Shown: piece by piece, positions 41,525 to 43,815 of the stretch
Layout of the letters: each line of letters starts with the position of its first letter
Position numbering within the stretch: the stretch's first letter is position 1
From: Sphaerochaeta sp.
GTDB lineage: Bacteria > Spirochaetota > Spirochaetia > Sphaerochaetales > Sphaerochaetaceae
DNA length: 64,000 nucleotides
Assembly (NCBI GenBank): GCA_022482495.1
Contig: JAKVPA010000004.1
Coordinates: forward strand, 1 to 64,000
Direction: 5' to 3'
The notes under the pieces: generated by a model
Seen by the model: only the letters and a program-made list of their open reading frames with translations
What the model was told of the DNA's origin: nothing
The model's database searches: none
Program-made: the position numbers and the translations under genes

Positions 41525-41531
41525 CTGTGGT

Positions 41532-41605
41532 TGGAGGCTATCAGAATCGAACTGACGACCTTCTGCATGCCATGCAGACGCTCTAGCCAACTGAGCTAAG
41601 CCCCC
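41532..41605 (-). tRNA. tRNA-Ala (anticodon GGC)
   Basis: The 74-base minus-strand sequence folds as a cloverleaf: acceptor GGGGGCT with AGCCTCC (one G-U pair), D arm GCTCAGTTGGCTAGAGC, anticodon stem TCTGC/GCAGA with loop ATGGCAT (anticodon GGC, reading GCC), and T arm with GTTCGATTC. The 3' CCA is not encoded. A likely promoter (TTGAAA, then TAGAGT) lies upstream at about 41625-41655. Confidence 0.95.
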
Positions 41606-41741
41606 ATGCAACAGTAGGTACTCTATCAGATAACGCCAAAAACTTTCAAGAGGTTTGTACCGCGGAAATTGGGGAAGCTTCAATTGAGTCTTGCTGGGGT
41701 CTCTGCTATGATGGATGCATCGTTACGGCAGGGAGGTTGCT

Positions 41742-43178
41742 ATGGAGTTGGTGAAGAAACTGAAGGATGTGCTTTCTTCAGTGTTGCCAATTGTCGTGGT
41801 TGTCGTGATCTGCCATCTGTTCGTCACCCCGCTTCCTCCGGGATACTTCGGAAACTTTCTGCTGGGATCGTTGTATGTGATCCTCGGCCTGACGTTGTTT
41901 TTGCTCGGTGTGGACATCAGCATCGTGCCGGTCGGACAGGTGATCGGCTCCAAAGTGATGGAAAAACGCAGCGCGTTGCTTCTGGTTGTGGTGGGGTTTG
42001 TCGTCGGGTTCGTCATCACCTATGCGGAACCGAACGCGCTGGTCCTCGCTTCCCAGGTTTCGCTGGTAAACCAAGCGATCCAGGCCAGAAAACTGCTTTT
42101 GATGCTCTCCTTGGGTGTCGGCGTGTACATCGCGTTGGCCTTCGCCCGCCTGGTGCTCCATATCCCCTTGAAATACGTCCTTTTGGTCAGTTATGTGGTG
42201 GTCTTCGTCCTGGCGTTCCTCAATCCGGAGACGATGGTCTCCATTGGGTTTGACAGCGGAGGGTCCGCCACCGGGCCGATGGCCGTCCCGTTCATCATGG
42301 CGCTGGGCATCGGCGCCGCGCGGGTGCAGTCGGGGAGCACGGAGATGGATAATTTCGGATTCGTCGGCATGCAGTCCATCGGCGCCATCATTGCGGTGTT
42401 GGTCATGGGATTGCTGGTTCCCCAAGGCTCATCCGCCACGGTGGTTCCTTCGTATCCCTCAGGACACTTCCTTTCCATGGCAGGCGCCCAGTTCCAGTCC
42501 GTCGCCTCCTCAATGCTTCCGTTGGTGGCGGTGGTGCTGTTCTTCCAGTTCACCCTGCTTCGCATGCCTCGCATCCAGATGACCCGGGTGTTCGTCGGTA
42601 TGGTGTACTGCTTTGTCGGCATGTCGGTGTTTTTGTTGGGGGCGAACAGCGGCTTCATGCCGGTCGCCTTCGTGTTGGGGAAAGCGATGGGTTCCCTCTC
42701 CCCGGCGGCGTTGATCGTCCTGGGATTGGTGCTTGGCGCGCTGGTGGTGCTGGCCGAGCCTTCCGTCTACGTCCTGGTCACCCAGGTGGAGGAGATCAGC
42801 AACAACCACATCACCAAACGGATGATGCTGACGTTCCTCGCCGCGGGCGTTTCCCTGTCGGTGGGGCTTGGACTGGTGAAGATGGTCTTTGGCTTCTCCA
42901 TCCTGTGGGTTCTTGTCCCGGTGTATCTCATCTCGTTCATTCTGTTGTTCACCGGACCAGGATTGTTCGGTGCCATTGCGTTTGACAGCGGCGGAGTGGC
43001 CGCAGGCCCCATGGCCGCCACGTTCATCCTGCCGTTCTTCATCGGATCTTCCATGGTGTTCAAGGGAGATTCGTTCGGCATCATCGGCTGTGTATCCATG
43101 GCGCCGCTCATCACCATTCAGATGCTTGGCGTCCTGTACCAGCGGAAACTGAAAAAGCAAGGAGGAGGCAAGATATGA
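41742..43178 (+). CDS. Duplicated DUF1538 membrane protein
   Basis: This 478-residue polytopic protein has two tandem DUF1538 units of about 235 residues. Each carries the same signatures: LFLLGVDISIVPVGQVIG and FLLGANSGFMPVAFVLG, EPNALVLASQV and EPSVYVLVTQV, and the re-entrant-like GFDSGGSATGPMAVPFI and AFDSGGVAAGPMAATFI. This is an inverted- or tandem-repeat transporter architecture. ATG 41742 has GGGAGG. The stop overlaps the PII gene start by ATGA, as expected for a transporter gated by PII proteins. The substrate is unknown. Confidence 0.85.
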   Translation: MELVKKLKDVLSSVLPIVVVVVICHLFVTPLPPGYFGNFLLGSLYVILGLTLFLLGVDISIVPVGQVIGSKVMEKRSALLLVVVGFVVGFVITYAEPNALVLASQVSLVNQAIQARKLLLMLSLGVGVYIALAFARLVLHIPLKYVLLVSYVVVFVLAFLNPETMVSIGFDSGGSATGPMAVPFIMALGIGAARVQSGSTEMDNFGFVGMQSIGAIIAVLVMGLLVPQGSSATVVPSYPSGHFLSMAGAQFQSVASSMLPLVAVVLFFQFTLLRMPRIQMTRVFVGMVYCFVGMSVFLLGANSGFMPVAFVLGKAMGSLSPAALIVLGLVLGALVVLAEPSVYVLVTQVEEISNNHITKRMMLTFLAAGVSLSVGLGLVKMVFGFSILWVLVPVYLISFILLFTGPGLFGAIAFDSGGVAAGPMAATFILPFFIGSSMVFKGDSFGIIGCVSMAPLITIQMLGVLYQRKLKKQGGGKI

Positions 43179-43815
43179 GCGATGTGGTGATCTTCACCAT
43201 CGTCCAGAAAGGAAAGGCGGAGAAAGTGTTCGCCGCCGCCAGGAACGCCGGTTCCACCGGCGGAACGATCTTCTATGCCCATGGCACCGCCCCTTCCCGT
43301 CTTCTGTCCATGCTGGGGTTGGGTGACAGCCACAAGGAGATGATCGTCATCCTGACGGAGGAAGAAAAGGAGAACGCCATCATCACGGCGATGTGTGGTG
43401 TGGAGAAGTGTCAGGGAGCCGTTTGGGTGGCTCCCTGCGGAAAAGCGGTTTCAGCAGCGGCTCGTGCAGAACGAGCAAGGAGAAGACACAATGGATACAG
43501 CATGGGAAATGATCAATGTGATCTGCAACCAAGGGTACTCGGAGGAAGTGATGGCTGCGGCACGTGGTGCCGGGGCTGGTGGCGGTACGGTGGTCAACGG
43601 ACGGGGTACCGGGAACCCCTGCGGATGTCAAGTTCTTCGGCATCCAGCTGGTCCCGGAGAAAGAGATGTTGATGATTCTGGTGGAGAAGGAAAAAGAAGA
43701 GGAAGTATTCAATGCAATTGTCGCCCTTCCTTGTCTTCAGGAACCGGGTAGTGGCATCGTCTACACCATGCCGGTGACACGGTTCCAACTGCTGGGAGGA
43801 AAGAGTTCCTTATAA
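43175..43815 (+). CDS. Tandem PII-like regulators, two +1 frameshifts
   Basis: Domain 1 (from ATG 43175) reads SDVVIFTIVQKGKAEKVFAA to GAVWVAP; domain 2 (ATG 43491 with AAGGAG) reads MDTAWEMINVICNQGYSEEV to TRGTG-like NGRGTGNP, then, after a shift, ADVKFFGIQLVPEKEMLMIL. Both breaks are at CCC TGC GGA (codons 43433 and 43617), and skipping one C at each restores conserved, codon-typical sequence. With both shifts corrected, there is no stop between the domains, giving one 212-residue tandem PII. Alternatively, domain 2 is translated separately from ATG 43491. It probably gates the DUF1538 transporter. Confidence 0.7.

Follow-up and report, generated by a model that had tools for sequence, protein, structure and literature searches.

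The DUF1538 family is known from a single tested pair, UmpA and UmpB of Halomonas zhaodongensis. Both belong to DUF1538, they form a heterodimer, and the two together confer Na+(Li+,K+)/H+ antiport on everted vesicles (PMC5484666). The Halomonas fragment that was active in E. coli carried no PII gene, so PII is dispensable for activity there, and no PII partner of UmpAB is reported. PII control of transport has been described for other carriers. A review of the field lists carriers for ammonium, nitrate, urea and bicarbonate only (PMC10710835). In the SbtA-SbtB system a membrane carrier for bicarbonate is served by a dedicated PII-like protein, SbtB, which is a single-domain trimer. In AmtB-GlnK and in the Amt-PII fusions the carrier and the PII protein are coupled as genes or joined in one chain. 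PstA, a further member of the PII-like fold family with a signaling role, is a receptor for c-di-AMP (PMC4316997).

The locus described here lies in a 64,000-nucleotide stretch of Sphaerochaeta sp. DNA (contig JAKVPA010000004.1), referred to below as the window. A gene for a DUF1538 double-repeat membrane protein, a putative cation/H+ antiporter, occupies 41742..43178 on the + strand, and an alternative upstream ATG for its ORF is found at 41715. The protein matches the DUF1538 family (PF07556) with 386.8 bits (cut-off 22.6, E 2.5e-116) in two stretches. The N-terminal, UmpA-like repeat 1 (41790..42416, +; 213.8 bits) carries AEP and GFDSGG motifs, and the C-terminal, UmpB-like repeat 2 (42525..43136, +; 185.6 bits) carries AEP and AFDSGG motifs. 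These matches bear out the initial annotation, which had recognized two internal repeats with one FDSGG signature each. It had also noted that the stop of the membrane protein overlaps the PII start, and this too is seen in the sequence: the TGA of the antiporter gene and the ATG of the PII gene share an ATGA at 43175..43178 (+), a geometry typical of translational coupling. The tandem PII-PII gene then extends to 43815 on the same strand (43175..43815). A tRNA-Ala gene of opposite orientation (anticodon GGC; 41528-41606, −) immediately precedes the antiporter gene, and a weak sigma-70-like promoter match lies upstream of the antiporter at 41684..41712 (+), with two such matches found against 1.2 expected by chance. 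No riboswitch was detected by Rfam in the window or near the antiporter start in 27 related loci. The downstream ORF, from 43953, resembles aspartate-semialdehyde dehydrogenase by eye.

The transporter had been taken for an uncharacterized one. This description does not fit the family, which includes the known Na+(Li+,K+)/H+ antiporter UmpAB (PMC5484666), and the window protein also matches the NCBIfam models of both subunits. The scores, 134.6 bits for UmpA (NF041627) and 123.9 bits for UmpB (NF041628), are well under the equivalog cut-offs of 490 and 500. The closest relative, L062, has a DUF1538 protein that is 53% identical to that of the window. When the Methylocystis proteins were compared with another close relative, L032, UmpA was 37% identical to repeat 1 and 33% to repeat 2, and UmpB was 39% identical to repeat 2 and 33% to repeat 1. 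Each subunit is thus closer to one repeat of the double protein, and on these identities the window protein is best regarded as a single chain that unites UmpA and UmpB. It shares with UmpAB the Pfam family, the two homologous copies, the UmpA-like and UmpB-like halves and a conserved pattern of Glu, Asp, Arg and Gly. Unlike UmpAB, however, it has both halves in one polypeptide and is coupled to a tandem PII gene.

An AlphaFold model of L032 (13 sequences; pLDDT 84.9, pTM 0.83) shows an identical order of helices in the two repeats. The helix interruptions in each repeat fall at the AEP and FDSGG–TTGP motifs. Glu114, Asp189, Glu370 and Asp446 (L032 numbering) are kept in every one of 114 sequences, and Arg154 and Arg411 (L032 numbering) are nearly invariant in the same set. 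With seven crossing helices per repeat and the second repeat inverted, the net loop charges separate without overlap, from +0.4 to +2.4 inside and from −2.3 to +0.2 outside (p 0.00016), a 7+7 topology that was picked with the loop-charge data in view. Seven segments per half had been predicted earlier for UmpAB (PMC5484666). A model with re-entrant hairpins (five TM segments plus two hairpins per repeat) fits the loop charges more poorly (p 0.06) and was set aside. The suggestion that the FDSGG motifs form re-entrant loops is therefore upheld in one respect only: the helices are broken there in the model, but the loop charges favor broken helices that cross the membrane. Broken helices and conserved carboxylates are common in ion/proton exchangers such as NhaA. 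By analogy, the broken helices with conserved acidic residues seen here fit antiport, and the invariant Glu of AEP and Asp of FDSGG are likely the ion- or proton-binding carboxylates. We assign no known transporter fold to the membrane part, since Foldseek at E ≤ 0.001 returned nothing from the PDB and VIA-align gave only scattered matches to helical proteins with Z of 3–7, a result that is not proof of a new fold.

A profile built from the intact tandem PII proteins of relatives (the A2 profile) finds the PII gene of the window in three pieces and three frames, all on the + strand. A fragment of PII-like domain 1 is in the first frame (43178..43414; E 1.3e-18), the first part of domain 2 is in the second frame (43443..43619; E 2.8e-20) and the last part of domain 2 is in the third frame (43612..43797; E 5.1e-23). 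At the equivalent position L062 has a single intact PII–PII ORF of 215 aa. Hence the "PII proteins" that the initial annotation placed after the membrane protein belong to a single PII–PII gene whose frame is broken twice; PII-type sequence is present as it said, but up to 43815 there are fragments of that gene and no intact proteins. The Pfam P-II model (PF00543) scores the first fragment at 19.2 bits, under its cut-off of 25, and the intact relatives at 32.2 to 66.3 bits, over the cut-off. The frame breaks, at window positions 43412-43437 and 43603-43619, coincide with the short inverted repeats CAGGGAGCC/GGCTCCCTG and GGGGT/ACCCC.

Both domains of 102 tandem PII proteins were surveyed in canonical PII numbering. 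The T-loop residue Tyr51, the site of uridylylation, is at 0% in both domains, and Ser49, the site of phosphorylation, is at 0% and 3%. At the 2-oxoglutarate/Mg-ATP site Gln39 is found in 0% and 2% of domains 1 and 2, and Lys58 is retained in 81% and 95%. The B-loop has lost Asp88 (0%) and nearly all Lys90 (1% and 0%). Two glycines are kept as well, Gly37 at 92% and 63% and Gly89 at 95% and 68%. The T-loop region reads G-GTA-S--L--LGLG in domain 1 and ARGTG-----FFG----PEKE in domain 2. With canonical residues such as Tyr51 lost, the DUF1538-linked protein is, by its sequence, PII-like and without uridylylation. Binding of ATP/ADP, which had been assumed from the behavior of PII proteins in general, loses its residue support with the disappearance of Q39, Y51, D88 and K90. 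The putative ligand is probably an adenine nucleotide or a cyclic (di)nucleotide, which would set the protein apart from canonical ATP plus 2-oxoglutarate sensing. The nearest solved PII sequence, 9p1x, was considered as a PII–transporter complex and dropped because its motif resembles that of NifI.

The pairing of DUF1538 with PII extends far beyond this contig. Among 84,980 species genomes scanned there were at least 582 relatives, and the best 80 loci of these were used. This sample favors good matches to the double-repeat query, and the gammaproteobacterial umpAB loci fall outside it. The 80 loci come from Spirochaetota, Clostridia, Desulfovibrio-type bacteria and one Planctomycetota MAG and contain 81 DUF1538 genes, 80 of them testable; a PII gene is immediately adjacent to all 80. 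It is one tandem ORF downstream in 71 cases, two separate PII genes downstream in eight (Clostridia) and a tandem PII upstream in one. In a set of spirochaete relatives PII is adjacent or fused at 35 of 37 DUF1538 genes, a count that partly overlaps the first because several loci of the two sets, for example L080 and L041, are the same contig. The two exceptions are in one genome, G023, whose tandem PII is at least 0.46 Mb away. Among 61 relatives, the 33 DUF1538-positive genomes all have a tandem-PII match (32 at E below 1e-8, and G042 at 1.2e-5); a match of like strength is found in one of the 28 negative genomes, and three more negatives have weak matches only (Fisher p 1.8e-16 for 33/33 against 1/28, kinship ignored). 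Thus DUF1538 genes mostly without PII neighbors, the finding that would have spoken against the association proposed in the initial annotation, are not what these loci contain, and the DUF1538–PII pairing is real. No description of the link was found in the literature searched, including the accessible parts of PMC5484666, PMC13255231 and PMC12093952.

The pair is found on plasmids as well. Those of Methylocystis and Chelativorans carry umpA–umpB–PII operons in which there is just one PII, and DUF1538–PII occurs on plasmids of three Clostridia. At these loci public annotation already lists the antiporter and PII genes side by side, so their adjacency can be seen in databases. No relatives were found in viral contigs, and the matches in the phage collection are short unannotated contigs. 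In G018 (L041, L080) two consecutive DUF1538 genes have a tandem PII in between. PII genes of the DUF1538-linked subtype also occur alone, with no DUF1538 neighbor, in G023, G036, G004 and G024. Two such genes, L234:7395-8105 and L235:4116-4475, lie by a sugar-kinase-like gene or between cytochrome-biogenesis-like and arsenate-reductase-like genes, as judged by eye.

Natural fusions join the two components in one chain. In three genomes (G005, G016 and G024; loci L042, L044 and L049) the DUF1538 protein itself ends in a further PII-like domain, fused to its C-terminus in ORFs of 619–632 aa, and the tandem PII gene sits just upstream. The fused domain is unrecognized by Pfam, and its assignment to PII rests on the A2 profile, which was not trained on it and detects it with E 5.5e-21, 8.6e-19 and 2.6e-17, and on a structure model. 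The model has the ferredoxin-like beta-alpha-beta-beta-alpha-beta order, with pLDDT mostly 57–80, and its best matches are PII-like: 3dfe with Z 8.1 (rmsd 2.5, 76 residues) and SbtB, 6mmo, with Z 8.0 (rmsd 2.1, 73 residues), a Z of about 8 being modest. CPII ranks lower. The fold modeled is that of this fused domain. A cytosolic domain at the C-terminus of DUF1538 places that end inside the cell. Such joining of carrier and PII, as neighboring genes throughout the two samples above or as one chain in these three genomes, is the arrangement of PII-gated transporters. The genome of the window (G000) also has, at G000:C6:96754-98403 (L240, L244), a 633-aa frame in which an Amt ammonium transporter and a canonical-looking PII domain are joined. 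The Amt-fused PII keeps TG-IGDGKI and KVRTGE and with them the canonical residues, whereas the DUF1538-linked PII does not.

Taken with the known systems, the locus resembles SbtA-SbtB in that the membrane carrier has a PII-like protein of its own, and SbtB ranks among the nearest folds of the fused PII domain, but the transporter families are unrelated and two joined PII-like domains stand in place of the single-domain SbtB trimer. The coupling of carrier and PII genes, or their fusion, is shared with AmtB-GlnK and Amt-PII. PstA has in common with the tandem protein the PII-like fold family, but no sequence match was found between them and the PII described here is linked to an antiporter. 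The reading we favor, and hold to be probably correct, is that the locus codes for a monovalent cation/proton antiporter under PII-like gating, where the gating, the docking and the ion moved in this species are inferred. The membrane chain would have two homologous repeats that lie in the membrane with opposite topology. Each would comprise seven helices, two of them interrupted, and the chain would exchange Na+ or K+ for protons. Its translationally coupled partner, cytosolic and built of two PII-like domains, would dock on the antiporter from the cytoplasmic side, and a small ligand would determine whether it blocks exchange or allows it. PII proteins are normally trimers. The gating is modeled on GlnK acting on AmtB and SbtB acting on SbtA, and known PII targets can work as trimers (PMC10710835). 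The PII role may be inhibitory rather than essential, which fits the activity that the cloned Halomonas genes show in E. coli when no PII gene is present. It is attractive to match the two PII-like domains to the two inverted antiporter halves. That there is a widespread class of ion exchangers under tandem PII, with two domains diverged to match two inverted halves, is a more tentative idea, to which we give somewhat less than an even chance.

Several other explanations were weighed. The PII gene of the window could be a true pseudogene that leaves the antiporter unregulated, as there are two frame breaks inside 641 bases and the genome is without any other tandem PII. The breaks are, however, probably indel errors of the assembly, because other genes in it are split as well. 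A comparison of ORFs from a genome of the same genus with 464 kb of the window's assembly showed 9 of 77 sampled orthologues broken into more than one frame. In a second relative the figure was 0 of 19, and with so small a control the difference is not significant by itself (p 0.20). A pseudogene is considered improbable. The split genes include one for a ClpB-like protein (by eye), and examples are found at L177:13997-16571, L184:16176-18349 and L186:9401-10664; with about one in eight sampled genes frame-split relative to the same-genus genome, the gene breaks of this assembly should be read cautiously. A PII neighbor that never contacts the transporter, being co-transcribed for a shared condition and regulating other targets, would account for the solitary PII genes of the same subtype. 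Immediate adjacency is nevertheless near-universal, both in the best 80 of at least 582 loci and in the 37 genes of the relatives, and is accompanied by stop/start overlaps and C-terminal fusions, which makes an absence of contact very improbable.

The same complex may instead answer to a second messenger, with the PII pair sensing c-di-AMP or cAMP in the manner of PstA or SbtB, so that cation/proton exchange is tied to osmotic or pH signaling and not to nitrogen or energy state. The nearest PII-like folds to the fused domain point that way, as they are CPII and SbtB, the latter solved with AMP, cAMP and c-di-AMP. So do the absence of the canonical ATP/2-oxoglutarate residues, the precedent of PstA as a PII-like c-di-AMP receptor and the exchange of Na+, Li+ and K+ by the one tested DUF1538 member (PMC5484666). 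No sequence match to PstA-type proteins was seen, however, and this version is rated as possible but rather doubtful. We also think it unlikely that DUF1538 of anaerobes moves another substrate (an organic acid, bicarbonate or an ammonium-related ion, for instance), with UmpAB as a specialized halophile branch and PII gating a nutrient carrier. No alternative substrate is documented, the acidic residues are invariant in the 114 sequences, and a growth-pH model has DUF1538 among its predictive cation-transport genes; on the other side are the scores far under the UmpA and UmpB equivalog cut-offs (134.6/490 and 123.9/500) and the fact that the PII targets named in the review are nutrient carriers.

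A PII-like-gated cation/proton antiporter thus stays the preferred reading, and the evidence suggests a PII-regulated transporter that combines a new transporter family with a two-domain PII, the gating being the part supplied by analogy. The more tentative idea of two domains matched to two halves, if true, would add both a new architecture to the PII proteins and a new transporter to their targets, and a PII-type signal, metabolic or nucleotide, would then bear on the homeostasis of pH and sodium. The pairing with PII would supply the missing regulator of the DUF1538 family, the one tested member of which was assayed without PII. Being near-constant, it would extend PII signaling to the pH and sodium balance of gut and anaerobic bacteria.
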